Below are positions 38,461-63,909 of a DNA stretch of 64,000 nucleotides, piece after piece. The stretch is from NCBI RefSeq assembly GCF_900167535.1, contig NZ_FUYE01000010.1:62001-126000 (forward strand). The letters run 5' to 3'. Within the stretch, counting starts at the first letter, position 1. Every line of letters starts with the position of its first letter. Below the pieces are notes generated by a model, which was not told where the DNA came from, ran no database searches, and worked only from the letters and a program-made list of their open reading frames with translations. The position numbers were made by a program, and so were the translations under genes. This DNA is from Prosthecobacter debontii (GTDB lineage: Bacteria; Verrucomicrobiota; Verrucomicrobiia; Verrucomicrobiales; Verrucomicrobiaceae).

Positions 38461-40425
38461 TCACCAACGCATCCTTGCCAGCAGTTCGTCGAGCAAGTCA
38501 CCGCGACTCAGCACGTCCAGCGCTGTTTGAGGATTCGTTGGAGTCGGCATTGAGCTAGGCCCACCAATTCTTTCCCAGGCTTCTCGCGTCAGGGGCGGAG
38601 ACTCCATCATCTCTGCTTCCTGAACGCGCTGCTTCATTTGTTCAGCAACCGCATCCTCAGGAATGGGCACAAGGGCTTCGGTCAGCCAGACTTTGGCCAG
38701 AGCCTCGGTGGCTGGTGCCCCCAACTTGGCATCGTAACCAGGGAAAAAACCGCGTCCGGCGAAGATCAGGGCTGCGGTGCCACCATCCTGCGCCCTTGAA
38801 ACATCCACATCGTTGAAAAAGCTGATCATCGAACGGCTTTCGGCAAGCTTCCGGACCAAATGGATGGTCTCGACACCCGCCAGCGTCGTTTCGGTTTGTT
38901 TGGCTAAGGCACAGGCATAGCCTGCCGATTCACCGATCTGCATCCAGATGGGTTCCAGGCGGATCGCACCCCAAGCCACATGAGTGGAACTGACACACAC
39001 CGGCACGATCAGGTTATCCACCTCACTCGGCAGCAAAGCCCGATACGGCACCTGGGCCGGAAACGTCTCGTGATGCAGCATCATCTTTCCCTCATCCAGA
39101 CTCGTGCCAACCTTTCCAGGTGTGCAGGCATGGGTATCCATATACCACTCGGCGAAAGCGATACTGTCCGCGTGAGCCGGTGCTCGATCGGCACCTAGCT
39201 TGAGCATGAAATCGTGTTGAGTGATCACGTAGCGCCCCCTCAAACGTCGGGCTTCTCGCACATAAAATTCATGTGGGCGATGACCGTTATCGACAAACTC
39301 ATCCTTCGCCAAGCCATAAGCACCAAAAAACTTCCGACGCTCCGGCGTCACCGAGGGATCGTTTTGCAGAAAGTAGAGCAGCCCCATCGTCGCATTCCAA
39401 TGCTGATCCATGACCTGCCGCCGCGTTTTCCAATCTCCCTCCACATATGCTTGATGCGGTCCGATGAGCTGAGGCCTATTCCAGCCTATTTTTTGGTTAG
39501 GCAAAGGCGATACGATGGATCCAAACTCCAAGGTCTTGAGAAACTCCGGATCATAATCGGCAGGCTTCTCCACGGGCAACCGATTCGCAGGATCGGAGGT
39601 CAATGTGGTTCGATAATTGAAGGCCTGAACATTCGAGTCCCCCTCCCCCGTGCTCTCTGGTTTCACGATGATCTGGAAGCCTGGAAATTGACGCAAGTTC
39701 AGCCGATCATGTTTCTCCGCCATCTGCGCCGTGGCCTCATCTGGGGGTGTCTTGGACGCTTGCATGTAGATGCGCCCTGCATGCGGTTCTTGGTATTCAT
39801 CTCGGCTTTCCCGCCCGACTCGATACTCCACGCCTGCCAATGGGAGCAAATCCCCCTCATAGGAGCAATCCGCATAGCTGGCAGCCTGAATCTCCAGAGG
39901 CGTGTCCGGCTGTCCCCAAGCCGCAAGATGCAGCTTGGTCAAAAGCCGACCTTCACGCTCTAGCTTCACGGGCACAAACCCCTTCAGCACCGTGATGTTG
40001 GGTTCTCGATGCACCAACTCCGTTAAAATTCGCTCCGCCACACGAGCCTCGAACCGCCCGTTGGTATGCCCTGATTTACCCGGTTGCGCCGCTTGGTATT
40101 GCGGAGACTTCTCACCATAGGTCGTTCGGTAGTGCTCCATGATCGAGCGCCGCACTTCATCGTAAATGGGAGACCGCTTCCCTTCGTATTGAGTATCCCA
40201 GACGCCGAGCCCGTTCGCCAAGATTCCCCCAAGATGCTGCGTGCGATTCAGCAACAGCACGGATAAACCTTCGCGGGCTGCGCGCACCGCCGTCGCTATC
40301 CCCCCCGGTGTGGCTTCGACCACCACGAGATCATACTCGGTCTTGATCGGGTCACTCGCCGACAACGACGAAACCGCCACGCCCCACATAGCCAATGTCG
40401 AAATGAAATAACGAAAGCGATTCAT
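38461..40425 (-). CDS. Exported FAD-dependent oxidoreductase (FAD_oxidored family)
   Basis: 654 residues with a signal peptide at 1-23 (cleavage near S-A-S). The N-terminal dinucleotide-binding region reads 'YDLVVVEATPGGIATAVRAA', in which the first glycine pair of the usual G-G-T-P-G-G is replaced by E-A, an odd change for an FAD site. The rest follows the FAD_oxidored family to the end, including 'SMISFFNDVDVS' and 'GFFPGYDAKLGAPATEAL', and is clearly paralogous to the C-terminal half of the sialidase fusion at 43601-47128. Last gene of the minus-strand carbohydrate cluster. Its start follows directly after a sulfatase remnant, which supplies its AAGGA. Substrate unknown, presumably a sugar or its breakdown product. 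Confidence 0.85.
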   Translation of the reverse strand: MNRFRYFISTLAMWGVAVSSLSASDPIKTEYDLVVVEATPGGIATAVRAAREGLSVLLLNRTQHLGGILANGLGVWDTQYEGKRSPIYDEVRRSIMEHYRTTYGEKSPQYQAAQPGKSGHTNGRFEARVAERILTELVHREPNITVLKGFVPVKLEREGRLLTKLHLAAWGQPDTPLEIQAASYADCSYEGDLLPLAGVEYRVGRESRDEYQEPHAGRIYMQASKTPPDEATAQMAEKHDRLNLRQFPGFQIIVKPESTGEGDSNVQAFNYRTTLTSDPANRLPVEKPADYDPEFLKTLEFGSIVSPLPNQKIGWNRPQLIGPHQAYVEGDWKTRRQVMDQHWNATMGLLYFLQNDPSVTPERRKFFGAYGLAKDEFVDNGHRPHEFYVREARRLRGRYVITQHDFMLKLGADRAPAHADSIAFAEWYMDTHACTPGKVGTSLDEGKMMLHHETFPAQVPYRALLPSEVDNLIVPVCVSSTHVAWGAIRLEPIWMQIGESAGYACALAKQTETTLAGVETIHLVRKLAESRSMISFFNDVDVSRAQDGGTAALIFAGRGFFPGYDAKLGAPATEALAKVWLTEALVPIPEDAVAEQMKQRVQEAEMMESPPLTREAWERIGGPSSMPTPTNPQTALDVLSRGDLLDELLARMRW

Positions 40426-40598: not shown

Positions 40599-42062
40599 TC
40601 ACTCCGTGAAGTAGAAGCTGAACAGCTTGGCGCGTTCGCCTTTGAACGTGACACGAACCTCACGGCCCTTGATCGCACTTAAATTAGAACCGCTTTTCCA
40701 TTTCACCACAGCCTGCGTGGCGTTGGTGCGTAGGGTTTCGGAGTCTTCGAGTCCAAAGCCTTCCAGGCTCTTGCCCTCGGCATCGGTCAGGCCGACCTGC
40801 AAATGACCGAAAACGGCGGTATCCAGATTGAGAGCGAGGTTCGTTCCATCCACTTTCACCCGCTGGGTCAAGGCGCTGCCGCCGCCAGGAGCGAAGTCGA
40901 GCGAGACAAAGCCATCGACACGTTGAACATAACGAAAGATAACGCCGTCAGTTTGGATCTCGCGTGCTTTTTTATCGCCATGTCGAGAGCGAAAACCGGT
41001 GCCGTATTGCCAGATCTCTTCGCCACGCATCACCAGCCATGGTCCCATGAAAACCATGTTGGCACTCTCACTTCCTGCGAGGCCTGGGCGTGCATAGGGT
41101 GAACGATCATAGCGATGCCAGTGATAGCCATCCCGACTGCCGATGAACTGCACATCGAGCCGACCATCACTGGGGCTTTTCTCACGCTGGAAAAAGGAAG
41201 GAAAGCCGATGTACCAACGCGGGTCGAGCGGATAGGGCTGGGCGGAGATGTTGTAAACATCACTGTTGGGTGGATCAATCTCATCGGTTTCCAACACTGT
41301 GGGAAAGTCATCCCCGATCACTGGCGGTTTCTCTTTGCCCCAAAGGTAGAGCGTTTTATCGGAAGGTTGGTTAGGCAAGGGGGTGTCCAGATCGGACAAC
41401 TCAGCACGCACCACCGTGCGATAGCGCTTTTTATCCGCCCGGGTTTCCCAAGCACGCAAATAAAGGGCGTATTTGCCCACACGTTCATCCCAAAACGTGA
41501 CGGCCTGACTATCGGCGCCGAACTTCAACAAGACGTTCTCATCCCGTGTCCAATGCAGGCCATCGGGGGAATGAAAGCGCAGCATACCACCGTCTTTTTC
41601 CCAATGATGCGTGATGTAGTTGTAACGCTTCTGCGGCGGGGCACGTTCATCACGAAAGACCGTTCCTTCGAGAGAACTCAGACCAACGAGGTTGTTATCC
41701 TTGCTGCCCTCATGCTCCACGATACCGAGATTCGGCTTGATCCAGTTCACCCCATCGGTGGACTCCGCATAGGCCACATTGGGCACATTCTTCTTGTCGC
41801 GACAGATGTACCACATGCGCAGCTTGTCCCCATCGTCCAGGACGGTGAGAAACAGACTGATCATCAATTGCTCCCAGGGCTTATCCGCCCGAATAACGGT
41901 TTCACGCTGCTGAGCGGCATTCACATGCAGCGTGGCGTTTTCGGCCTTCGCGATGAACGCCGGATCGAGAAACAAATGGCGCAACGGCTGGGCCGGGGAC
42001 TGCGCATTCAAAAAGGGAGAGACTGTCAGCAGCAAGCCTGCAAGACCCATTGGAAAGTTCAT
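40599..42062 (-). CDS. Secreted glycosidase-like protein (five-bladed propeller, GH32/43-like)
   Basis: 487 residues with a signal peptide at 1-20 (cleavage after L-N-A). The body has the repeating 'YAESTDGVNWIKPNLG', 'FHSPDGLHWTRDENVLL' and 'IGSRDGYHWHRYDRSP' pattern of blades with an S-x-D-G-x-x-W turn, seen in the arabinanase/sucrase-like five-bladed propellers that include GH32 and GH43. I do not see a full catalytic triad I can assign, so it may be a hydrolase or a binding protein. The C-terminal 100 residues form a beta-sandwich-like domain. It lies 20 bp downstream of the beta-helix gene, clearly in one operon. Confidence 0.75.
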   Translation of the reverse strand: MNFPMGLAGLLLTVSPFLNAQSPAQPLRHLFLDPAFIAKAENATLHVNAAQQRETVIRADKPWEQLMISLFLTVLDDGDKLRMWYICRDKKNVPNVAYAESTDGVNWIKPNLGIVEHEGSKDNNLVGLSSLEGTVFRDERAPPQKRYNYITHHWEKDGGMLRFHSPDGLHWTRDENVLLKFGADSQAVTFWDERVGKYALYLRAWETRADKKRYRTVVRAELSDLDTPLPNQPSDKTLYLWGKEKPPVIGDDFPTVLETDEIDPPNSDVYNISAQPYPLDPRWYIGFPSFFQREKSPSDGRLDVQFIGSRDGYHWHRYDRSPYARPGLAGSESANMVFMGPWLVMRGEEIWQYGTGFRSRHGDKKAREIQTDGVIFRYVQRVDGFVSLDFAPGGGSALTQRVKVDGTNLALNLDTAVFGHLQVGLTDAEGKSLEGFGLEDSETLRTNATQAVVKWKSGSNLSAIKGREVRVTFKGERAKLFSFYFTE

Positions 42063-42082: not shown

Positions 42083-43570
42083 TTATTGAGCTTGGACTTT
42101 CTTCATCACCAGGTTGCCCGTCAAGACGGTCTCCAAACCCTTGTCGGTGATGGCGGAAGCTGTGACGTTGTCACGGATAATGTTGGACTTAGCACCCGGA
42201 GCGATTTCGAGCGTGCCGTTGACATGAGTGTTGCCGGTCCAAATCCAGTGACTTGCGTTCAAGGTCGTGGGTCCAGGTTGGCGCAGCATGTTTCCTCTCA
42301 CCACGATATGGGTCGAAGTCATCGCCTCCTGAGGTTCGGAGAGCAACGCTCCTTCGCAGACATTGTCTGCAAAGATGATATCCTGGACGGTGGTCCTCCC
42401 AGCGGTGCGCACATCGTAAAACTGGACATCTCCATCGAAAACATTGCCTGTGAGGGTAATGCCCTCATACACGCACGAGAGCGCTTCCGGGCGGGTCACG
42501 AAGCGTGCCGTGCATTTACCTGCGGTATGCTGGTTGCGAAAAACATTCCCTGTGACCACGACATCGCTGATTCTTGAATGTAGAGGTAGCGGCTCCGTAC
42601 GGAAGAGCAGACAAGGCAAAACCGCTTTCTTCGACACCTCTGGCATCGGCTCCACATGGTTGCCGCTGACTCGGATGTGATGGGAGCCTTCGGTGATATT
42701 GATGCCCGTTCGGGTGAAATGGACGATATTGTCGCGGATCTGCACGTTGCGACTGCCAAAGATCACCTGCGGTCCATCCACCACATTGACAATATAGTTG
42801 TCCGCGATGAGGCCGCCGTTGCACTCGGCAAGCTCGATCGCTTTGTTGCCACAGGTCTCGATGTAGTTGTTGTGCACCTGCCAGTTTTTGAACTGCGTGG
42901 CCATTCGGTCGGCATCAAAGTAACCCGTGCGCACTTTTTCAGGGTCCTCCGAGGCGGCTTTAGCTTCCTCGGCCGGAATGACATGCTTGACCAGATACAT
43001 CGCTGTGGCCGCCTTCGTGCAACCTACCGCCTGTTTGGCGTCATAGATCCAGCAATGGCGCACGGTGATGTTGTCGCAGGATAGCAGCAGCGATTCCTTT
43101 TCATCCAACCGAGCATTGAACCCCATGATGGAACCTCCCCCGATGGCTTTATCATTTCCGGTATAACGTAGGTTTTCGATCACCACATTGTGAGAAGGCA
43201 CACTCGCCGTGCCGATCCTCATGGGAAAATAACGCAGTTCGTTAGGCGGAGTGGTGGGATCAAGATAGATGTGAGTGGCATACCCTTGCCCACGCAGAGT
43301 GATGTTACTCTTGATGACCACGGTTTCATCATCGGCGTGACGGGACAGTTTAAAGTCCCCTGCCCCAAGCAAGACCACACCACCACCGGCAGCAGCCACT
43401 TGATCAATAGCTTGCTGTAAAAGGGTATCCGCAATCACATCCGGACCTGGAGCAGGAACGCGCAGTTCAAACCCGGGCGATACAGGGGCAGAAGCCGCAA
43501 GCGATGACTGCGACCATAAAACCTGGGTGATGCCCGTGCAGAGTAGAGCGAGAGACAAGAATCGAGACAT
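42083..43570 (-). CDS. Secreted parallel beta-helix protein, pectate-lyase-like
   Basis: 495 residues with a signal peptide at about 1-26 (cleavage near L-A-A-S). From residue 80 onward the protein has successive short repeats with hydrophobic, Asn and Gly positions ('ITLRGQGYATHIYLDP', 'VVIENLRYTGNDKAIGG', 'NVQIRDNIVHFTRTGINITEG'), the pattern of right-handed parallel beta-helix carbohydrate-active proteins. Members include polysaccharide lyases, epimerases and glycosidases, so the activity is not settled. It sits between the sialidase fusion and the propeller protein in the same operon-like run, which supports a role in polysaccharide breakdown outside the cytoplasm. Confidence 0.82.
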   Translation of the reverse strand: MSRFLSLALLCTGITQVLWSQSSLAASAPVSPGFELRVPAPGPDVIADTLLQQAIDQVAAAGGGVVLLGAGDFKLSRHADDETVVIKSNITLRGQGYATHIYLDPTTPPNELRYFPMRIGTASVPSHNVVIENLRYTGNDKAIGGGSIMGFNARLDEKESLLLSCDNITVRHCWIYDAKQAVGCTKAATAMYLVKHVIPAEEAKAASEDPEKVRTGYFDADRMATQFKNWQVHNNYIETCGNKAIELAECNGGLIADNYIVNVVDGPQVIFGSRNVQIRDNIVHFTRTGINITEGSHHIRVSGNHVEPMPEVSKKAVLPCLLFRTEPLPLHSRISDVVVTGNVFRNQHTAGKCTARFVTRPEALSCVYEGITLTGNVFDGDVQFYDVRTAGRTTVQDIIFADNVCEGALLSEPQEAMTSTHIVVRGNMLRQPGPTTLNASHWIWTGNTHVNGTLEIAPGAKSNIIRDNVTASAITDKGLETVLTGNLVMKKVQAQ

Positions 43571-43600: not shown

Positions 43601-46600
43601 TTAACGTTTCGCCAGCGAGCGCCACAAACCCGCCAAAAAGTCACCCCGTGTTTCGGAATTCGCTGCGGCGGTTTGCTTTTCAGCGGCGTGAACTTTTCGA
43701 GCAAGAACCATCGGATCCAATGATCCCTGTTTCAGGCTTTCGAATCCTTCCAACCACACGGTCTTCAGCGCCTCACTCAAAGGTGCATCGAGTCGGGCAT
43801 CATAGGTGGAAAAGAAACCCTGGGTGCCAAAATACTGAGCGGCTGCTACACGCGGATCGTCCGAAGTGACATCCACATCATTGAAGAAGCTGATCATCAC
43901 ATGGCTGGAAGCGAGCTTACGCATGAGCAGATCGGGATCGAGCTTCGCGGGCGTTGTGCTGTTTTGCGTGGCTAGGGCCGCAGCAAAACCCGCCGCCTCT
44001 CCCGCCTGCATCCACACAGGTTCCAGGCGAATGGAACCCCAGCCCACATGCGAGGCGGACAAGGGCACCGGCACTAACAGATTATCCACCTCCTGAGCCA
44101 ACAAACAACGGTAGGGCACCTGCGCCGGACGGCTTTCTTCCGCAAGGAAAAAGATGCCATCGTCATGCCCCCCTGGCACGCTGCGATCCAGGCAGGCCAC
44201 CGAATCCACGGGCCAATCCGTGATAGCAATGCTGTCCGCATGAATGGGAGTCCGGCCGATGCCGTCCGCGACTTTATTGTCATGCTCTGTAAAGACAGAG
44301 CGCCCAACTAAGCGCCGAGCCTCGCGCACATAGATTTCATAGGGCACGTGATGGTTGTCGGGGAACTCGTCGGCCGCCAGACCGTAACCCGCGAACTGTT
44401 TGCGCTCTTTCTCCGATGCCTCAGGATCGTTCTGCATCCACCACAGGCGCATGAGCATGGCCTCCAGGTAACGCTTGGAAATGGCCTCACGCGTGGGCCA
44501 ATCCGCCGCTGGATAGTCATTCTGCGGACCGATAAGACGGCCACCATTCCAAGCGACTTTACCGTTGGGAAGATTCGGCACAAAACCACCCCCACCCGCT
44601 GATTTAGCCATAGCGTCGTCGTAGTTGGCAGGCTTGGTCACCATGATCCTATTCGCTGGATCGCGAGTGAGGATAAGCCGGTAGTTATAAGCCATCACTG
44701 AGCCATCGGCTTCACCACTATCAGGTCCCTCTAGGATCTCGGCTGTGGCATGACTGTTGTAACGAATGTTGAGGCGGCCTTCATCGGCATCTTTGGGGAA
44801 GCCGCGTTGACCTGGAGCCTTTTCACGTTCTGCGGTGTAAATGACGCCCGCATGAGGTTCATTGTACTGGCTGCGAGCCTCACGGCCAATCTGAGATTTC
44901 ACGCCAGCGGCCGCAATGAGATCGCCTTCATACATGCCATCGGCAAAGATCTTCGCCCTGACCTTCACCACGTCTTTGCCGTTCCCATGCAAGGCTTGGA
45001 GTGTCACACTTTTGAGCAAACTCCCTTCACGCTCGGCCTGAGTCACAATGTGACCTAACAAAACGGTGAGATTTTTTTCCTTCTCAACCATCTGATTGAA
45101 AAGCATCTCCGCAATCCGAGGCTCCACCTTCGGACGATCAATATGTGCTCGGCTAGTGGCACTGGGCATGGAAGCCAAATATTGAGGCGATTTCTCACCA
45201 TAGGTCTCCCGATAGTAGGTCGAGATACCTCGCAGCATCTCCGCGTAGAGTGGAGACCGGAGACCATCATACGGAGCCTCCCAACCACCGGCACCACTGG
45301 TGATGAAGCCGCCCAAATGCTGTGTGTGATTGACCAGCAACACGCTCAAGCCTTCCCGTGCCGCGCGCACGGCTGTGGCGATACCTCCCGGTGTTCCGCC
45401 AATCACCACGAGGTCGTAGCTTTGACCATTCACCACATCGGGAGCCGCTGCAGATTTCAGCAGCATCGGTGCAGGGATCTTAACCTCAACCGGTGGCTGC
45501 ACGGATGTGGATGACTGAAGCGAAAAACCTGCATCCGCACGGGTGTTACGTTCCACCTTGGCCTCGGCTTCAGGAACGATCTGTAAACCATCCACAACCG
45601 CATAACCACTCTTCGCCTTGGACAAGATGCGAATGGTCGCCTTTTTGCCTTTAACGAACTCGAACACCCCGAGCGAATGAGGAATGCCTTCTTCCAAGCA
45701 CTCCTCACGTTGGTTCAAGGTCACCTTCTTTTCACCTTGGGCATCTTGAATCAGGATCTCCACCTTGCTGCTGCGGTTCGAGGAAGCCACATAGAGTAAC
45801 CGCACTTCGTAACGCCCATCAGCAGGAATATCTGGCGTAAAGGTGGCGCTGCCGTCTTGAGTGGTGGCTTGATATCCGGTGCCCGTGAGAAAGCCGATCT
45901 TACTGCCCCCAGTGATCCATTGGCCCTCATACCGAGCTTGATCGTCATCCAATAGAATGCCAGCCACCTTCGCTTGTGAAATGCCGGTTGTTTTCTCCAT
46001 CGCATCCGTCTCCTTGAGCTGGAAGCGAGTGCTCACCACGGAGTGCTTATCTGGGCCTTCACGATATTTGACGTAGGTGGTGGCTACGAAGGTGCCATCG
46101 GGCAGCACTTCCAAACCTGGATAACCGCAATCGCTACGAGCATGGCTGTGCAGCAGCTTGATTTTGTATTCACCATCCTTACCTGAGATGATATCCTCAT
46201 AACGTCCCACCCAAGCCACGAAGTGGTTACGGGTAGGGCTGCTGGCCCCCATATCGCGGAAGGTCACCACCAATCGCCCATCGGGAGCATACTTGGCTTT
46301 GTGGCGATCCCCATGCAGGCCGGGAGGTAATGTTTTCACATCGGACCAGGTGCGACCTTCATCATCACTGGTGATGAAGTGACTGCCGTGCGTGCGGATG
46401 TTTTCACGGATCAGACAGAGGAGTTGTTTGCCATCGGGTGAACGCACCACTTCGGGTTCACAAGGCTTGAGGTCGCCGAGGTCCACCAGCACACGCCAGG
46501 GACTCCAGGTCAGGCCGCCATCCAGCGATTCACTCTGCGTGACGATGTTTGACCTCGGGTCCTTCGTTTCCCCTGGACGACGGATATTGGATAGACCAAT

Positions 46601-47128
46601 CAAGCGCTTACCGCCATCCACGGGCGTGATGGTGCAAAAGGGCATCACACAGTCGAGGCCATTCGCTTTCATCTCCGTCCAGGTTTTCCCCTGATCCAGA
46701 GAGTAGGCCTGATGCATGCCGCCGTTGTCGGGATGGCGTGTGCCTCCTGGTCCCTGCCCCGCAAACACAAAGAGACGTGAGACGCCCTGGGGATCGGTCA
46801 GCCAATAAAGGGCGGGACAGTTGCGTGTCGTGGCCCAGTTCTCCGGCACGGGCAGCAGCTCACTCCAGGTCTGGCCGCCATCTTCACTGCGTTTCATCGG
46901 TCCACAACCACCACCGTGTCCATAGGTCCAGACGCAATACATGGTTTTGCCATCGGGGAGTAGGACGGTCGTAGGATGTCCCTGATAGATCTCAGGGGTG
47001 CCTTGGGCGACGATGACGTGGCGAGAGGTGTCTTTAGAAAGATCCACAAGGAGCGGATGATCAGCCCCCGTGAGATGACCCGCTATAAGCCCTAAGGCCG
47101 TAACGAAAAGCGTAGAAAAACGAAACAT
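43601..47128 (-). CDS. Sialidase - carbohydrate-binding-like - FAD oxidoreductase fusion, secreted
   Basis: 1175 residues from ATG 47128, with a signal peptide at 1-22 (cleavage near L-T-G-A-D). Residues about 25-385 form a six-bladed sialidase/BNR propeller with at least four Asp boxes ('SEDGGQTW', 'SLDQGKTW', 'SLDGGLTW', 'SDDEGRTW'). Residues about 390-540 are a beta-sandwich like the golvesin/xanthan-lyase carbohydrate-binding type ('ARYEGQWITGGSKIG', 'GRYEVRLLYV', 'GYAVVDGLQIV'). From about residue 575 a complete FAD_oxidored domain starts 'YDLVVIGGTPGGIATAVRAA' and continues to the end. The last part is a paralogue of the protein at 38461-40425. A continuous frame joins all three; a sequencing-level frame error is unlikely because no frame change is needed. 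Confidence 0.88.
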   Translation of the reverse strand: MFRFSTLFVTALGLIAGHLTGADHPLLVDLSKDTSRHVIVAQGTPEIYQGHPTTVLLPDGKTMYCVWTYGHGGGCGPMKRSEDGGQTWSELLPVPENWATTRNCPALYWLTDPQGVSRLFVFAGQGPGGTRHPDNGGMHQAYSLDQGKTWTEMKANGLDCVMPFCTITPVDGGKRLIGLSNIRRPGETKDPRSNIVTQSESLDGGLTWSPWRVLVDLGDLKPCEPEVVRSPDGKQLLCLIRENIRTHGSHFITSDDEGRTWSDVKTLPPGLHGDRHKAKYAPDGRLVVTFRDMGASSPTRNHFVAWVGRYEDIISGKDGEYKIKLLHSHARSDCGYPGLEVLPDGTFVATTYVKYREGPDKHSVVSTRFQLKETDAMEKTTGISQAKVAGILLDDDQARYEGQWITGGSKIGFLTGTGYQATTQDGSATFTPDIPADGRYEVRLLYVASSNRSSKVEILIQDAQGEKKVTLNQREECLEEGIPHSLGVFEFVKGKKATIRILSKAKSGYAVVDGLQIVPEAEAKVERNTRADAGFSLQSSTSVQPPVEVKIPAPMLLKSAAAPDVVNGQSYDLVVIGGTPGGIATAVRAAREGLSVLLVNHTQHLGGFITSGAGGWEAPYDGLRSPLYAEMLRGISTYYRETYGEKSPQYLASMPSATSRAHIDRPKVEPRIAEMLFNQMVEKEKNLTVLLGHIVTQAEREGSLLKSVTLQALHGNGKDVVKVRAKIFADGMYEGDLIAAAGVKSQIGREARSQYNEPHAGVIYTAEREKAPGQRGFPKDADEGRLNIRYNSHATAEILEGPDSGEADGSVMAYNYRLILTRDPANRIMVTKPANYDDAMAKSAGGGGFVPNLPNGKVAWNGGRLIGPQNDYPAADWPTREAISKRYLEAMLMRLWWMQNDPEASEKERKQFAGYGLAADEFPDNHHVPYEIYVREARRLVGRSVFTEHDNKVADGIGRTPIHADSIAITDWPVDSVACLDRSVPGGHDDGIFFLAEESRPAQVPYRCLLAQEVDNLLVPVPLSASHVGWGSIRLEPVWMQAGEAAGFAAALATQNSTTPAKLDPDLLMRKLASSHVMISFFNDVDVTSDDPRVAAAQYFGTQGFFSTYDARLDAPLSEALKTVWLEGFESLKQGSLDPMVLARKVHAAEKQTAAANSETRGDFLAGLWRSLAKR

Positions 47129-47186: not shown

Positions 47187-48911
47187 TCAGTGAGCACCGC
47201 TGTTACCGTGCTTCCACTCGAGGACTTGGCCATCCTGATCCAGACGCTGGCGCAGTTTTGCATAGTCCACTTTTTGAATCGGCGTCTGATCCTCAATCGC
47301 CATCACCGCAGCCGTGGCGGCGCTTTGGCTCGTGACCATAAAGACCGGCTCCATGCGCAGGCTGCTAAAAGCCGTGTGGCTACAGCTCAGAGCAAATGTG
47401 ACCAGAAGGTTGTCGCACTCGGCCTGCTTGGGCACGATGCAGTCATAGCCAATGTGATACGGACCAAAACCACCTCGCCCACCCGCAGTCTTGCCCTCAC
47501 GGATCACGACGCCGTCTTTGACAATGCGGCGGATCTCATGCGTATCGGTGCCATAGCTGCCGAGGCTAATCGGTTTAGGGGCAACTTCTCGACCGAACGT
47601 ATGATGTTCTGTCAGCACAAGGTCACTGACCATGCGTCGTGCCTCACGGACATAGATCTGATGTGGCCAGCCGCCGGTATCTTTGAATTCGTCCTTGGGC
47701 AAACCAAAGCGCTTCATGTCTTGGCGCACTTTCTCAGGCACACGTGAGTCGGTGGCGAGGAAATGCAGAAGGCCCCGATGATAGTTCTCGTGCTCTTTGG
47801 CAATTTCATCCCGTCGCGCGTAAGTCGCCTCAGGCCATTCATGGCTGGCTCCCGGCAGATTGCCACCAAAGGTCGCCGTGTTGAAATCCCATTTCTGGTT
47901 AGGCAAGGCATCGTATTTGGAAAACCAGCGCAAATCCATATCGTCCCCGTTGGCCAAACAAGCCTCGATGAAACGCACCACGATTTCATATCGCTTTGGA
48001 TCGTAACCCGGTGGTGGAGCAATCGGAATGCTATTTGCAGGATCGGTGGTTAAGCAGAGACGGTAGCAGTAAGCCTGCACGCCAGGGGCAGCCTCTCCAG
48101 GAGTTCCAGGTTCACCCTCCTGAATCAAAGGCAAAAGCCCGCTCTTGGGATCGCCTTTGATCACATAAGGATCGAGGGGGAAGTCACGATCCCACACGCC
48201 TTGTCCACCCGTCACACGCCCCGTTTCTCCTGGCATGAGATGCCCCGTGCGAGGACGATACTTCTCATCATAATAGATGCCGTTGTAGGTCTCGCCATAC
48301 TTCGCATTGCCTTCTCTCATCAGGGAGTAGCTCACCCCTGCCTTCGCCATCAGATCGCCTTCATAGGTGGCATCGATAAACATCTTCGCGCGGAAAACGG
48401 TGCCATCCTCCGTCACAATCTCGGTGATGCGCGCGCCATCCTTCACAGCCCGTGCGAGACGTGCTTTAAAGTGCACCTTCACTCCCGCCTCGCGTGCCAT
48501 CGCATCAAAGACGCCTTCGGCCTTATGAGGCTCGATGGCATAGGCGCCACCTGTGGCTGGGCCACCGCCTTTCGCGACGAAGGGTTTATCCCAGGCCAGC
48601 ACCACGCCCACTGTTGCGGCGAGTTGGGTGAAGTATTCACGAGCGATGCCACCGACACTGCGAGGATCGCCGATATCCACCGCACTCAAGCCCCCCGAAG
48701 TCATGCCACCGAGATGCTTCCCCGGTTCGGCAATCACGGTGCTTTTCCCCATACGAGCCGCCTGAACGGCCGCCGCGACACCACCGCTGGTGCCACCATA
48801 CACACACACCTCGGATTCAATAACGGCAGCTTGGGCACTCGCAAAACCAAGCCCCAAACAACTCAAGAGGGCAAAACGACAATGAAACTGGCGATGGAAG
48901 AAACGCATCAT
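47187..48911 (-). CDS. Secreted FAD-dependent oxidoreductase (FAD_oxidored family)
   Basis: 574 residues with a signal peptide at 1-28 (cleavage near A-Q-A-A). The dinucleotide-binding 'VCVYGGTSGGVAAAVQAARMGK' has the intact G-G-T-x-G-G. It belongs to the same broad family as the two oxidoreductases downstream but is a more distant branch: the C-terminal 'FFNDVDV' block of the other two is missing. Third of a minus-strand series starting with the beta-propeller gene at 48985. Substrate unknown. It ends 58 bp before the sialidase fusion starts. Confidence 0.85.
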   Translation of the reverse strand: MMRFFHRQFHCRFALLSCLGLGFASAQAAVIESEVCVYGGTSGGVAAAVQAARMGKSTVIAEPGKHLGGMTSGGLSAVDIGDPRSVGGIAREYFTQLAATVGVVLAWDKPFVAKGGGPATGGAYAIEPHKAEGVFDAMAREAGVKVHFKARLARAVKDGARITEIVTEDGTVFRAKMFIDATYEGDLMAKAGVSYSLMREGNAKYGETYNGIYYDEKYRPRTGHLMPGETGRVTGGQGVWDRDFPLDPYVIKGDPKSGLLPLIQEGEPGTPGEAAPGVQAYCYRLCLTTDPANSIPIAPPPGYDPKRYEIVVRFIEACLANGDDMDLRWFSKYDALPNQKWDFNTATFGGNLPGASHEWPEATYARRDEIAKEHENYHRGLLHFLATDSRVPEKVRQDMKRFGLPKDEFKDTGGWPHQIYVREARRMVSDLVLTEHHTFGREVAPKPISLGSYGTDTHEIRRIVKDGVVIREGKTAGGRGGFGPYHIGYDCIVPKQAECDNLLVTFALSCSHTAFSSLRMEPVFMVTSQSAATAAVMAIEDQTPIQKVDYAKLRQRLDQDGQVLEWKHGNSGAH

Positions 48912-48984: not shown

Positions 48985-50181
48985 TCAGGGGGCTGCTGGA
49001 GCTGCCGCGTTTTTAAAGGCGTAAAGCACCCCATCATCCGCACCGACGAGCACATAGTCACCGGCAACCGCAGGCGATGTCTTCACCGCCGCCCCGATCT
49101 CGTAGGACCACAGCTCCTTCCCGTCCTTCAAATCGAGCGCATATACATAGCCATCATCGCAGCCGAAAACCGCTGCTTTACCGGCACAGATCACCGCACT
49201 GCTGTCGATGCGATCCCGGCAGCGATACTCCCAGAGCTGCTCACCGGTGACACGATCAATCGCATGGAAGCGCTTATCCCGGCCTCCCACGTAGACACCC
49301 TTTTCCCAAATAGCAGGGCCAGCATAAAACTCAAACTCACGCTCACCGTATTCCCAGATCTTGGCTCCATCGTTGAGACTGTAGGCGCTCACACGATTGC
49401 CATAGTGAGACACATAGACCACCCCATCGGCAATCGCCACGTTGTTACCGATGTAGGCCCCCACTTCGATCTGACGCTTTTCTTCGCCATTCGTCACGTC
49501 GTGAACGTGCAGCACACTGTCACAGCCGCCAAAGACCACCACGCCCTCGCCCACCGCAGCGCCGCCATTGATGTAGTAGCCCGTCTCCGCCGCCCAGTCA
49601 CTTTTCCCCGTCTTGGCATCCAGGCAATAGACCTTGTAGTCATAGCTGCCGATGAGGATTTTCTGCACGCCCGTTTGGGGATCGGTCCAGGTGTTGGCCG
49701 CCGCATGAATCTCAGCCTCCGTTTCAAACTTCCAGGCTTCTTGACCCGTCTCCGCATTCCAGGCATACACGAACCCATCCTGGCAACCCGCCACGACCAG
49801 ATCACCCGCAAAGGAAGCAGCCCCGTCAAAGGCCCCTTTCGCCGTGGTTTCCCAGACTTTCTGGCCCGTCTTCAGATCAATCGCATAGAACTGCCCATCT
49901 TTGCACCCCGCATAGACTTTCCCCGCCTTGACCACCGCACTGCTGACCAGCATCTCCGCCTGCCCCTTGGGTTTGTCCTGCAGCTTAAACTCCCACGCGA
50001 GTTCTAGAGGAAACCGCAGTTCCTGGGGAGACACCCCCGTCATGGACTCATTGCCACGAGTGAAAACCCAATCGCCAGCCACCTGCCCCACCGCCTGTTG
50101 CATGGGAATCACCGAGAGAGAGGCCGAGACGAGAAAAGCAAACACTGGATTCATGAAGAGAAATACGGTTCGAGACTTCAT
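48985..50181 (-). CDS. Secreted PQQ-like beta-propeller protein
   Basis: 398 residues. Signal peptide at the N-terminus (about 1-33; start may be ATG 50181 or ATG 50154). Six to seven repeats of 'V-Y-A-x-x-x-D-G-x-x-Y-A-x-D-x-x-T-G-x-x-x-W' build a PQQ-type eight-bladed-like propeller ('VYAGCKDGQFYAIDLKTG', 'VYALDLKDG'). The repeat pattern is that of BamB and PQQ-dependent dehydrogenase relatives, but no PQQ or metal ligand set can be identified by eye. First gene of the cluster 38461-50181. It may bind or sense rather than catalyse. C-terminal 'AAPAAP' tail is low-complexity. Confidence 0.85.
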   Translation of the reverse strand: MKSRTVFLFMNPVFAFLVSASLSVIPMQQAVGQVAGDWVFTRGNESMTGVSPQELRFPLELAWEFKLQDKPKGQAEMLVSSAVVKAGKVYAGCKDGQFYAIDLKTGQKVWETTAKGAFDGAASFAGDLVVAGCQDGFVYAWNAETGQEAWKFETEAEIHAAANTWTDPQTGVQKILIGSYDYKVYCLDAKTGKSDWAAETGYYINGGAAVGEGVVVFGGCDSVLHVHDVTNGEEKRQIEVGAYIGNNVAIADGVVYVSHYGNRVSAYSLNDGAKIWEYGEREFEFYAGPAIWEKGVYVGGRDKRFHAIDRVTGEQLWEYRCRDRIDSSAVICAGKAAVFGCDDGYVYALDLKDGKELWSYEIGAAVKTSPAVAGDYVLVGADDGVLYAFKNAAAPAAP

Positions 50182-59862: not shown

Positions 59863-62800
59863 ATGTACAAACGCCTCTGGAAACTTTTCCCTCTCGTCCT
59901 CTTCGCTCTGACGGCGAGAACTGCGACCGCTCAGCTCTATTGGGATGTGAATGGAACCACCGTTTACTCCGGGAATGCAGGTGGTCTTTGGGATGGTGCG
60001 TTCTGGAGTTCCGATGTGAATGGTCTTGCGACTCCCTCAGGTTATGTTGCCAATAGCTTCGTGAACTTTGCCGCCGGCACGGATGGTCTCGGCACCTACA
60101 CGGTCACGCTACCTGGTAACCAGACGGTCTCGGGTATTAACTTTCTCAGCGGACATGTCACCATCGCTCCGGAGACGACCTCTCCCATTGCCAGCGTGCA
60201 GATCCTGACTCTGAGTGGCACGGCTCCCACAGTCAATGTCCAGAACATGGACTCCACGATCAGTTCCCGAGTCACTTCGAGCGGTCTGACGAAAACCGGT
60301 TATGGCAAGTTGTCCCTGAATTTCGGAGCCATTGCGTCCAGCGGCTATTTTATCTTCACCGGAGCACCCATCACCGTGAACTCCGGTACTTTAGAACTGA
60401 CAGGCACTGGCGGCAGTGCTGACCAAATGACGACGAACGGCAGCATCGTCATCAACAATGGAGGCACCTTCCTCTGGGGAGGCAATGCCAACAACATCAG
60501 CAACAGCACCCGCTTCACGATCAATGTCGGCGGGACCATGATTGCCAAGATCAGCGACAACGTAGGCTCGATTGAAGGTGCGGGGCATCTATCCTTGCAA
60601 GGAGGCACGCTCAATCTGTCCCAGGGGTCTGCTAACACCACCTTTTCAGGTTTAATCACGGGTGGCGGAAACATCTATGCCTCCAGTGGCACGGGCATCC
60701 TCACCTTGGCGAATGCTAACACCTTCACGGGAGCCATCGGCAGCGTCAATACCAATACAAATACCGGAGGCATTCGACTCGCGCACAACCGAGCAGCTCA
60801 ATACGCCACCCTCACGCTCAACAACTTCGACACGTCCAAGATCAACGTGAGCTTTGCTAGCGATATCGGCACCTTCGTTACCGGAGGTTTGACGGGCATC
60901 AGTAAACTCACGCTCGAAGATGTCTCGGGGGCACCCATTGACCTACAGGTCGGGAACAATGACGCCTCCACGACCTATCGCGGCTCCCTGAGTGGGTCCG
61001 GCGGCCTAACCAAAATTGGCATCGGCATCCTGACGCTCACCGGTGAATACTTGACGGTTACCAACACCACATCGAACACCGTCATCACGACCGCAGGCAC
61101 AAGCTCACATACCTACACCGGTGACACGACCATCCTCTCCGGCACTCACACCAATGCAGGGATCAGCGGCAACAACAGCAGCAATAATCTCAGCACCCTG
61201 AAGCTGGACTTTAACGCCCAATCCACGTCCACCACCGTCAGCGGCAATACCTACACCATGGTGGGCACAGCCCCCACCAGCAACATCATCAGTTCCGCCA
61301 GTCGTCTTGTGCTCGGCGGCGGCAGACTCTGGGTGGCGGGCAACAATGCAGGAACAGCCGTCAGCCAGACCTTCAACAATACCCTCATCAAGTCGGGCCG
61401 TAACTTTGTCACGGTTACGCAAGGCAGCACGCCCGGCAATACGGTGGTGAACCTTGGAAACATCACCCGTGAGAACGCCGCAACCTTAGAGTTCTTCCTC
61501 CCCAATGGCGCAATCAGTCTGAGCAATGGTATCACCACCACCACACCGAATGATGCCAGCGGTATCCTCGGTGCTTGGGCCATCGTCGGCAGTGACTGGG
61601 CCATCAAGAATACGGCCGGAAACACCCTCGGCAATGTCGTCGCAGCCGGGTCTGAACTTTACACCGCTTACACCAGCGGCGACATCGTCAGCACGGGCAC
61701 GACCAATCTCCTGATCAACAACACCGAGGCCACCATCAGCACCGGCGCTGGGGTTACGGACATCAACACGCTCATGCTGCGGGATGCGGGATCAGCGACC
61801 CCACGTCTCATTGATATCGGCAGTGGCGAGACCCTTCGCTTCGGTGCCAATGGCGGCCTTTGGAACCAAGGAAGCCTAGCCAACACACTCACCATCGGCA
61901 GCACCGTCAATGTCGGCAGTATCACCGCAGGTGGAGCAGATAACACCGATGGTGAACTGGTCATCAATCACTCGGGTAGCGGTGACATGACCCTTCGCTC
62001 CTCCATTCGCGACAATGGCACTGGCGTTGTCACGGTGATCCGGACAGGCAACAGCCCAGTCATCCTTTCAGGCACCAACTACCACACAGGTGGCACCATC
62101 TTCACCCAAGGCCGCACCCGGGCGGACAGCATCGGTGCCCTGAGCACAGGGTCAGTGACGGTTGTCGCTGGCGGTCAACTTTGGGTCAATGCCTCCGGTG
62201 TTTTTAACAATGACTTCTACCTCGCTGGCACGGGTTATGGTGAAGGCACCATCCCTGGAGCTATCCGCATGCGTGGTGGAGAAACGCTCGGCACTTCAGC
62301 CAAAACCATCACGCTAACCGGTGACACCCGCCTCGGTGCCGTGAACAGTTCATCGCCGAGCACCCTGGCAGGCAAGATCACGGGTGACTATGCTCTGGAC
62401 CTCGCGGGAGGTGCCGGTGGCACCAACATCATCGTGCTCAGCCACACCGGCAACGACTTCACCGGCAATCTCTCCATCAACACCAACCTCAACAGTACCT
62501 CCGCCTTCAATCTCAGCGCTTTGGTCACTGTGCGGTTAGGCGCTTCCGAGGTCATTCCCCATGGCTTAGGGAAAGGCAATGTCATCATCTCAGGCGGCAC
62601 GGGCACCGTCTCCACCAACAGCGCCACATTGGACCTCTTCGGTTTTAATGAGACCATCAACAGCCTGATCTCCTATGGCAATCATGCCAATGTCTTCGTG
62701 ACGAACAGCAAGGCGTCCACCACTTCGACCCTGACCTTGGGAGGCAACGATAACAGCACCTCCACAAGCACTTCGGCCACTTACAACACCTTCTACGGTG

Positions 62801-63909
62801 GCACGCTTCAAGATGGGGCTGGCGTCCTTGCCCTCACCAAGATTGGCAAAGGCACTCAAACCTTGAGTGGCACGAGCACCTATTCAGGAGCCACCTTGAT
62901 CCAAGAAGGCACGCTGCAAACTGGAGCCGCTAATGCCTTATCCCCAAACTCCGATATCACCATCAGCGAAGGCAGTTCAAACATCCTCTCGCTGAGCAAC
63001 GGCCTCGCGGATTACTCGCAAACCATCAAGTCCCTCTCCGGCGGTGGCGTGGTGATTCTCGGCACGGTCGCTGCCGCCGATACAGCCGCCGCTCCTGGGG
63101 TTCGTCTCACCACAGGCAGCACGGCCGACACCCTCTATTCGGGTTTGATCGTCGGTGGGGGCGGGCTGGTCAAACAAGGCAGCGGACGCTTCACCCTCAC
63201 AGGGCCCAACACCTATGTCGGCACCACCACTGTGAATGCGGGCAACCTCCAAATCGGCGTGGCGGGTGTGGGGCAAAGCGGCAGTGGCGCTGTAGATATC
63301 ACGAGCAGTGGTACCCTTTCTGGCACCGGCACCGTTCGTGGAGCTACCACGGTTTCCGGTCTCCTCAGCCCAGGCGACAATGGCGGCGCTTCTATTGGTC
63401 AACTGGTCTTTAGCGATCTCACCGCCAGCAGCCTCACCCTTTCCGGTGGCGGCAGCGCTTCGGCACCACGCCTCCTTTTCACCCTCAATGGCGCCACTGG
63501 CAACGTCTCCGACTTGACCGGTGGGATCACGAATCCCAGCCTGCTGGATGGCACCTTTGGTCAGCATGACGCGCTCGAAGTCCAAGGCACCCTCAACCTC
63601 ACCAGCGGCAGCACCATCAAGATCGAATTGGCCGATGGCTACTCGCCGACTTTGGGGGACGTCTTCAACCTCATGGACTGGGGCACCATCTCGGGCACTC
63701 TCAATGCGGGCGGCTTCAACGCCGCCTCCGTCGGTGGCGACCTCGACCTGGAACTCAGCAACGACATGCTGACCAATGGCTGGATCTGGAACACCAGCCA
63801 GTTTTTGTCCTCTGGCATCATCTATGTCGCCGCTGTGCCTGAGCCTAGCCGGGTGACCTTCCTGCTCCTGGCCCTTGGCCTCCTCATCATGCGCCGCCGC
63901 CGGAATTAA
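59863..63909 (+). CDS. Autotransporter-repeat surface protein with PEP-CTERM
   Basis: 1348 residues with a signal peptide at 1-24 (cleavage near T-A-T-A-Q). The body has many beta-strand repeats, including passenger-type repeats of the form 'G-x-L-x-K-x-G-x-G-x-x-x-L-T-G-x-N-x-Y-x-G-x-T-x-x-x-x-G-x-L' at about residues 380-400, 1000-1025 and 1100-1130. The C-terminus 'VPEPSRVTFLLLALGLLI' followed by 'MRRRRN' is a PEP-CTERM tail (Val-Pro-Glu-Pro, hydrophobic helix, basic end), handled by an exosortase. So it is exported and likely anchored or trimmed at the outer surface, where the beta-helix body probably forms an adhesin or matrix protein. Divergent from the DUF58 operon. Confidence 0.93.
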   Translation: MYKRLWKLFPLVLFALTARTATAQLYWDVNGTTVYSGNAGGLWDGAFWSSDVNGLATPSGYVANSFVNFAAGTDGLGTYTVTLPGNQTVSGINFLSGHVTIAPETTSPIASVQILTLSGTAPTVNVQNMDSTISSRVTSSGLTKTGYGKLSLNFGAIASSGYFIFTGAPITVNSGTLELTGTGGSADQMTTNGSIVINNGGTFLWGGNANNISNSTRFTINVGGTMIAKISDNVGSIEGAGHLSLQGGTLNLSQGSANTTFSGLITGGGNIYASSGTGILTLANANTFTGAIGSVNTNTNTGGIRLAHNRAAQYATLTLNNFDTSKINVSFASDIGTFVTGGLTGISKLTLEDVSGAPIDLQVGNNDASTTYRGSLSGSGGLTKIGIGILTLTGEYLTVTNTTSNTVITTAGTSSHTYTGDTTILSGTHTNAGISGNNSSNNLSTLKLDFNAQSTSTTVSGNTYTMVGTAPTSNIISSASRLVLGGGRLWVAGNNAGTAVSQTFNNTLIKSGRNFVTVTQGSTPGNTVVNLGNITRENAATLEFFLPNGAISLSNGITTTTPNDASGILGAWAIVGSDWAIKNTAGNTLGNVVAAGSELYTAYTSGDIVSTGTTNLLINNTEATISTGAGVTDINTLMLRDAGSATPRLIDIGSGETLRFGANGGLWNQGSLANTLTIGSTVNVGSITAGGADNTDGELVINHSGSGDMTLRSSIRDNGTGVVTVIRTGNSPVILSGTNYHTGGTIFTQGRTRADSIGALSTGSVTVVAGGQLWVNASGVFNNDFYLAGTGYGEGTIPGAIRMRGGETLGTSAKTITLTGDTRLGAVNSSSPSTLAGKITGDYALDLAGGAGGTNIIVLSHTGNDFTGNLSINTNLNSTSAFNLSALVTVRLGASEVIPHGLGKGNVIISGGTGTVSTNSATLDLFGFNETINSLISYGNHANVFVTNSKASTTSTLTLGGNDNSTSTSTSATYNTFYGGTLQDGAGVLALTKIGKGTQTLSGTSTYSGATLIQEGTLQTGAANALSPNSDITISEGSSNILSLSNGLADYSQTIKSLSGGGVVILGTVAAADTAAAPGVRLTTGSTADTLYSGLIVGGGGLVKQGSGRFTLTGPNTYVGTTTVNAGNLQIGVAGVGQSGSGAVDITSSGTLSGTGTVRGATTVSGLLSPGDNGGASIGQLVFSDLTASSLTLSGGGSASAPRLLFTLNGATGNVSDLTGGITNPSLLDGTFGQHDALEVQGTLNLTSGSTIKIELADGYSPTLGDVFNLMDWGTISGTLNAGGFNAASVGGDLDLELSNDMLTNGWIWNTSQFLSSGIIYVAAVPEPSRVTFLLLALGLLIMRRRRN

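Follow-up and report, generated by a model that had tools for sequence, protein, structure and literature searches.

A sialidase-superfamily propeller joined to Golvesin-type and FAD oxidoreductase modules in Prosthecobacter debontii: a conserved gene with a tentative role in glycan processing

We analysed a stretch of 64,000 nucleotides from Prosthecobacter debontii (contig NZ_FUYE01000010.1, positions 62,001 to 126,000; hereafter the window, in whose numbering all coordinates are given) and found that one gene on its minus strand, at 43601-47128, encodes a protein in which a six-bladed propeller of the sialidase superfamily, a Golvesin_C beta-sandwich and a flavin adenine dinucleotide (FAD) oxidoreductase module of family PF12831 follow one another in a single frame. 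The fusion is shared within one family, yet is patchy and uncommon. Tentatively, and aware that it may well prove wrong, we read it as a secreted bifunctional glycan-processing enzyme, the propeller of which would cleave an acidic sugar and the FAD module of which would carry out an oxidation.

Results

The plus-strand reading of 43601-47128 is interrupted by many stops, whereas the minus strand carries one open frame. Translation from the ATG at 47128 yields 1175 residues; an alternative TTG start at 47296 would run into the upstream gene. The gene and its parts are as follows.

43601..47128, minus strand: whole fusion gene, 1175 amino acids; a single open frame, conserved in relatives
47066..47128, minus strand: signal-peptide-like N-terminus, residues 1-21 (by eye; helix 2-19 in the model)
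45992..47053, minus strand: six-bladed sialidase-superfamily propeller, residues 26-379 (Pfam BNR_2, VIA-align Z up to 30.4, Asp boxes)
45578..45943, minus strand: Golvesin_C (PF25275) beta-sandwich, residues 396-517 (Pfam; match to xanthan lyase 6f2p)
45434..45538, minus strand: Golvesin-FAD linker, about residues 531-565 (model; confidence below 50 at 531-546)
43913..45415, minus strand: FAD_oxidored (PF12831), residues 572-1072 (Pfam, model, structure search)
43604..43912, minus strand: helical C-terminal extension behind the FAD domain, residues 1073-1175 (model)

Pfam placed BNR_2 at residues 80-345 (expectation value, E, 3.1e-10), Golvesin_C at 396-517 (E 4.9e-14; 53 bits against a cut-off of 31.6, and 57.5 bits when searched alone) and FAD_oxidored at 572-1072 (E 9.8e-79; 266 bits against a cut-off of 27). 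Asp boxes of the form [ST]-x-D-x-G-x-[TS]-W begin at residues 81, 143, 201 and 254, a number to be set against a mean of 0.0017 in shuffles of the first 380 residues. The full-length model reached a mean predicted local distance difference test score (pLDDT) of 72 and a predicted TM-score (pTM) of 0.50, with 25 of the 36 ten-residue blocks of the propeller (residues 21-380) at pLDDT 85 or more; at this pTM the model does not fix how the two active sites lie relative to each other. Modelled alone, the FAD module scored far better (pLDDT 85.4, pTM 0.92). Since the signal-like N-terminus lies ahead of the propeller, the FAD module would be exported along with it if the signal works, and the protein is probably secreted. 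A preliminary description of this DNA had claimed a continuous frame of 1175 residues with at least four Asp boxes, a beta-sandwich behind the propeller, a complete FAD_oxidored domain and an exported chain. The frame is indeed continuous, on the minus strand, the boxes number exactly four, the sandwich is a Golvesin_C domain related to the end of xanthan lyase, the FAD_oxidored profile is matched from position 1 to 416 of 416, and the signal-like start, as judged by eye, agrees with export. As a side observation, the C-terminal extension, in which no Pfam family was found at E 0.1, reads AAQYFGTQGFF..., a stretch that we take to resemble slightly an S-layer homology motif.

The junction was searched for in 56 genomes, namely the window's own, 34 others of its genus and 21 of its order. 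A stop-free frame runs over it in 14, own included, every one of them in the window's genus, and none was listed among the 21 genomes of the order outside the genus. Propeller and FAD module are nearly whole in 12 of the 56 (own, G004, G005, G008, G009, G011, G016, G024, G027, G028, G029 and G030), and contig ends cut the junction-crossing gene in G015 and G034. Among the 34 other genomes of the genus, several of which are incomplete, 13 cross the junction, 19 have no such match and two are partial: in G031 the frame begins at the propeller's end, at a contig end, and was left out of the count, and G032 has the FAD part but lacks the propeller. On the scale of the phylum, the complete fusion was present in 5 of 387 genomes (own included), all of one family. 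Full-length identity is 72-81%. Among the carriers with names are Brevifollis gellanilyticus (L036) and Verrucomicrobium sp. BvORR034 (L032). The preliminary description had called the arrangement uncommon, and had asked whether a frameshift or stop lies near the junction and whether the same three-domain order occurs elsewhere. No stop was reported in the 14 crossing genomes nor in the five of the phylum; those five hold the same order, and their small number bears out the judgement of rarity. We reject a frame artefact welding two genes, with the junction crossed in 14 of 56 and 5 of 387 genomes, and likewise contamination or a lone odd genome, given the same counts and the neighbour genes kept in L096, L097, L099 and L100. 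Separately, the fusion or its end also occurs on two contigs titled Akkermansia muciniphila (L035, L038), which the trees place among the Verrucomicrobiaceae rows; they are probably misnamed metagenome-assembled genomes.

The phylogenetic trees were quick ones, supported by the Shimodaira-Hasegawa-like approximate likelihood ratio test (SH-aLRT) only and with several distant rows on long branches. In the propeller tree (54 rows), one branch separates the 19 fused rows from the others, in agreement with a single origin; its SH-aLRT of 90 falls short of the 95 at which the tool awards a star. Their nearest neighbours are L072, which its frame length (442) marks as standalone, and L040, a Pirellulaceae record of 995 amino acids in which a relative of the 574-residue FAD gene found next to the window's fusion is joined ahead of the propeller. 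The FAD tree (56 rows) holds a clade of 22 at SH-aLRT 97, made up of 21 rows from fusion genes, of which L037 and L038 come from frames truncated inside the propeller or where it ends, and of the FAD module of G032. Its sister (99) is L095, where the same FAD module (70%) is preceded by a domain that looks by eye like a TIM barrel (Pfam GHL10 at E 0.017, below cut-off). G075 encodes a Golvesin-FAD protein of 795 residues that has a signal-like start of its own and, on another contig, a standalone propeller (70%); with the two parts as separate genes, this arrangement likely represents the state before the fusion.

Other joinings recur around this FAD module. In G032, another kind of BNR propeller (BNR_2 E 1.2e-34) is fused to an FAD module (51%) in a protein of 1020 residues, and a frame of 1523 residues combines two FAD_oxidored domains with a GDSL lipase domain (L094:2066-6634); in L073 the FAD module is joined to about 330 residues of other sequence. 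Each of these other joinings (L040, L073, L094, L095) was seen in one genome, and the simple open reading frame (ORF) caller chose the wrong strand in several loci, among them L070, which was corrected. Over all these cases, the FAD clade has repeatedly been linked to other modules, some of glycan-active kind, and the fused FAD module thus appears, by its sequence company, to behave like an auxiliary oxidative module.

Structure searches with Foldseek and VIA-align gave the propeller a sialidase-superfamily fold, with sialidases at Z 27-30. The top VIA-align match was 5hx0, of unknown function (Z 30.4, root-mean-square deviation 3.0, 320 residues aligned), and others were the Porphyromonas gingivalis sialidase 8t24 (Z 29.2, 2.9, 312 aligned), Neu2 (2f10; Z 28.5, 3.3, 316 aligned), NanA and NanI. 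Residue conservation was read from 21 sequences, the window's included, with identity down to 42%. Invariant in all 21 are H71, R241, E242, N243, D274, R275, H276, R291, Y336 and Y352, and E224 is kept in 20. E224 opens and R241 closes a strand pair in blade four, R291 occupies in blade five the position that R241 has in blade four, and Y336 lies where blade six begins; by blade order and spacing against the GH33 residue numbers, E224, R241, R291 and Y336 may correspond to the Glu, the second Arg, the third Arg and the Tyr of GH33. In a HMMER alignment to PG_0352, the Arg 16 residues past a Glu falls opposite R291 instead of R241, one blade off the spacing reading. Comparison of profiles with a BNR neuraminidase (L062), and of sub-profiles with the Protein Data Bank (PDB), matched the Asp boxes in several registers and fixed no catalytic residue.

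For the FAD module, the structure matches were GidA (Z 17.5), Thi4 (17.3), urocanate reductase (16.7) and flavocytochrome c3 (16.5), and a profile search against PDB sequences matched mainly the dinucleotide-binding start; the module has an FAD-Rossmann fold. The gene at 38461-40425, which the preliminary description took for a paralogue, is the genome's best-scoring relative of the fused FAD domain (50% over residues 558-1127). The window genome holds 17 PF12831 matches covering 395 or more of the 416 profile positions, and in four FAD paralogues of this genome (C13, C27, C22, C11) the FAD match is directly followed by one of Golvesin type. The Golvesin sandwich of the fusion itself matches residues 948-1037 of xanthan lyase 6f2p (E 1.9e-8).

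Gene company was compared by detecting homologues of chosen reference proteins only, at E 1e-6. Seven Bacteroidetes loci hold standalone-type relatives of the propeller (L043-L048 and L050; propeller identity 53-68%). A GntR regulator, an SSF symporter and DUF6772 occur in six of the seven, and SusC/SusD and a NanM-like mutarotase in five each; a NanA-like lyase lies 8 and 18 kilobases (kb) from the propeller in two of three extended loci. L050 has no GntR, SSF, DUF6772, SusC/SusD, NanM-like or NanA-like gene. The best NCBIfam names for this company are NanR, cyclically permuted mutarotase and N-acetylneuraminate lyase, and its presence in six of seven loci argues for an acidic, sialic-acid-like substrate. 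In the window genome, a standalone propeller paralogue (40-43%) begins 48 base pairs past a NanA-like lyase gene. A 3-keto-disaccharide hydrolase domain (PF06439) lies about 2-12 kb from the propeller in three of nine standalone-relative loci (L042, and L047 and L048 through their extensions L062 and L063), a weak hint at keto-sugar chemistry. Among the 11 fused gene rows (the window's included), sulfatase-like genes occur in six, Pfam-confirmed in one (L034), and a nucleoside-hydrolase domain in one.

Two further places in the window genome were seen in passing. On contig C13 (L125:7011-9435), a NanM-like mutarotase gene and a BNR gene of more typical sialidase-like character, the latter with the motifs Y-H-I-P, SDWDD and MYSD by eye, are arranged head to head; given this pair, the genome may hold a sialic-acid pathway apart from the fusion. 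On contig C11 (L124:5954-11394), a second DHDPS-family gene has three frames behind it in which, again by eye, motifs resembling Asp boxes can be seen.

In the window, the fusion is the third of six minus-strand genes in a row, with gaps of 73, 58, 30, 20 and 173 bases. Its neighbours are as follows.

48985..50181, minus strand: first gene of the row, PQQ/BamB-like propeller, 398 amino acids (Pfam)
47187..48911, minus strand: upstream neighbour, FAD_oxidored, 574 amino acids (Pfam)
42083..43570, minus strand: downstream neighbour, right-handed beta-helix, 495 amino acids (Pfam)
40599..42062, minus strand: downstream neighbour, 487 amino acids
38461..40425, minus strand: third FAD_oxidored, 654 amino acids, paralogue of the fused FAD domain (Pfam, genome search)

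The 574-residue protein is the one whose relative sits in front of the propeller in L040. A relative of the beta-helix protein adjoins the fusion in L036, L097 and L099, and stands one gene off in L096. The 487-residue protein gave neither a Pfam family nor a PDB sequence match; its relatives recur beside the fusion in other genomes, and in L074 one of them is joined to a member of the propeller family. Elsewhere in the window, at 59863-63909, a repeat-rich, autotransporter-like frame of 1348 residues ends in a PEP-anchor-like tail (by eye).

Discussion

We propose that the Golvesin module anchors the protein to a glycan, where the divergent propeller would cut off an acidic sugar from the end of the chain; a sugar of the sialic-acid (nonulosonic acid) type is the likeliest, and the pair Tyr336/Glu224, Arg241 and Arg291 would be the residues at work. 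The FAD module might then serve as an oxidative auxiliary, oxidising a hydroxyl of the released or newly exposed sugar and passing the electrons to a respiratory acceptor. Cleavage followed by oxidation at one place, as the preliminary description suggested, is plausible, and since such modules have been joined repeatedly, it makes a reasonable hypothesis.

Several observations weigh against this proposal. The six-bladed fold is shared with GH93 and hence not exclusive to GH33; GH93 arabinanases nearly tie with the sialidases, at Z 27.1-27.4, the GH93 entries 2w5o and 2ydt and the arabinanase 3a71 scoring 27.2-27.4. In GH33, the first Arg of the triad belongs to an R-I-P motif and the acid/base Asp comes after it. 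In the propeller, residues 49-52 read Q-G-H-P and none of the 21 sequences has an Arg there; nor is there an invariant Asp at acid/base distance in the 21, D59 being invariant but too close. The FAD structure alignments span only about 210-300 of 624 residues, the FAD-binding part, and do not indicate a substrate; this partial coverage is an absence in VIA-align's match list and no proof of a new fold. As for gene company, the NanA-, NanM- and NanR-type matches all fall under the NCBIfam curated cut-offs. Among 20 chosen phylum regions with standalone-type relatives, a NanM-SSF gene lies beside one and a NanA-like gene beside none, a result that was the same with a poorer ORF caller, which missed the propeller in 3 of the 20. 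L049 and L050 have no NanA-like or NanM-SSF gene alongside, and from the 11 fused gene rows NanA-, NanM- and SSF-type genes are all missing, with GntR matched once and weakly. The scarcity of nan-type genes in the window's phylum and in the fused rows slightly weakens our proposal and slightly strengthens the view that the propeller has another specificity. Hence, of the sialidase domain claimed in the preliminary description, the superfamily fold stands by structure comparison, and the assignment beyond it is not supported, the R-I-P Arg being absent and GH93 nearly as close; 'sialidase' is right for the fold and a lead for the activity.

It is a doubtful, albeit serious, possibility that the modules are two enzymes acting independently on the same glycan, the fusion only ensuring that they are secreted together and in equal amounts, without any product being passed on. 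Several pairwise joinings (L040, L074, L094), some of them between genes that are neighbours elsewhere, would suit this, as would the low pTM and poorly modelled linker of the full-length model, which give no sign of a shared channel; however, the fused form has been kept in all the carriers counted above (14 of 56 and 5 of 387 genomes) and falls into one tree group. Rather unlikely, in our judgement, is a hydrolase of other specificity on the same fold, for example GH93-like, instead of a nonulosonic-acid enzyme. The close structural scores of the arabinanases favour it, as do the fused rows with their sulfatase-like genes, beta-helix proteins and nucleoside-hydrolase domain and without NanA- or NanM-type genes, yet the NanR-, NanM-, NanA- and SSF-type company of the Bacteroidetes relatives and the GH33-like spacing of Tyr336, Glu224, Arg241 and Arg291 speak for an acidic sugar. 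GH93 enzymes use other catalytic residues than GH33. We regard as unlikely that the propeller is a glycan-binding or scaffold module that, together with Golvesin, targets the FAD module, the sole enzyme, to a glycan: the first GH33 Arg is missing, and the propeller is absent from close relatives of the FAD module (Golvesin-FAD in L070, the 574-residue type joined to FAD in L094), but the active-site-like residues stay invariant down to 42% identity, and single-domain standalone relatives sit in degradation and uptake loci, which would better suit an enzyme.

Going beyond our proposal of cleavage before oxidation, the FAD modules might form an unrecognised secreted class of flavin auxiliaries, combined with hydrolase-type modules in Verrucomicrobiota and Planctomycetota, that oxidise first, the propeller, which lacks the usual Arg and acid, then cleaving the keto-sugar by elimination. 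We consider this improbable; if true, it would be a redox-assisted counterpart of the sialidase. More generally, PF12831 flavoproteins are abundant in the genome, yet a literature search under the family name or number brought up a single paper. In the open-licence PMC literature, we found no report of a sialidase-FAD fusion or of PF12831 in glycan breakdown, and the word 'oxidoreductase' is absent from the text of a paper on sulfated sugars in Verrucomicrobiota (PMC8857213). The fusion shared within a family, together with the single-case joinings to glycan-active-type modules, ties PF12831 proteins to glycan breakdown, gives a hint of a so far unstudied type of flavin enzyme that assists in taking sugar chains apart, and offers a purifiable protein for probing what these flavoproteins do.

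Among known systems, the fusion propeller shares the six blades and Asp boxes with the GH33 sialidases (PG_0352, 8t24; Micromonospora viridifaciens, 1eur/1w8o), to whose Glu, second and third Arg and Tyr its residues may be fitted by order and spacing, and the M. viridifaciens sialidase, going by the title of entry 2bzd, likewise has a sugar-binding module. It differs from them in having no R-I-P Arg and no evident acid Asp, with 15-19% identity in structure alignments. AmGH181 (Amuc_1547; 8axi in the Foldseek list) is a divergent propeller too; it keeps two of three arginines (R234, R305) and carries a C-terminal beta-sandwich (PMC10067855, PMC12018670), and its residues are E218, R234, R305 and Q350, the Gln replacing the catalytic Tyr with a His before it (PMC10067855). 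The fusion, in contrast, has the invariant Tyr336, another sandwich and an FAD module, no such module being mentioned in the passages on AmGH181. GH181 membership was rejected, as Tyr336 stands in 21 of 21 sequences where GH181 has Gln, if the place is equivalent.

The Bacteroidetes loci of the standalone relatives resemble the nan operons of that phylum, which comprise nanR, a lyase, a transporter, a TonB receptor/SusD pair and a sialidase (PMC3969230). In Ruminococcus gnavus, the product of an intramolecular trans-sialidase (IT-sialidase) goes to the oxidoreductase RgNanOx by way of a 4-keto intermediate (PMC7535918). The likeness to our proposal lies in a sialidase product passed to an oxidoreductase, but RgNanOx, as described there, is NAD-dependent and acts on 2,7-anhydro-Neu5Ac inside the cell after uptake, unlike a secreted FAD module. 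Comparable too are the PF12831-Golvesin paralogues, of whose family the fused FAD module is a full member; in the fusion, however, Golvesin precedes the FAD module, and the propeller precedes both.

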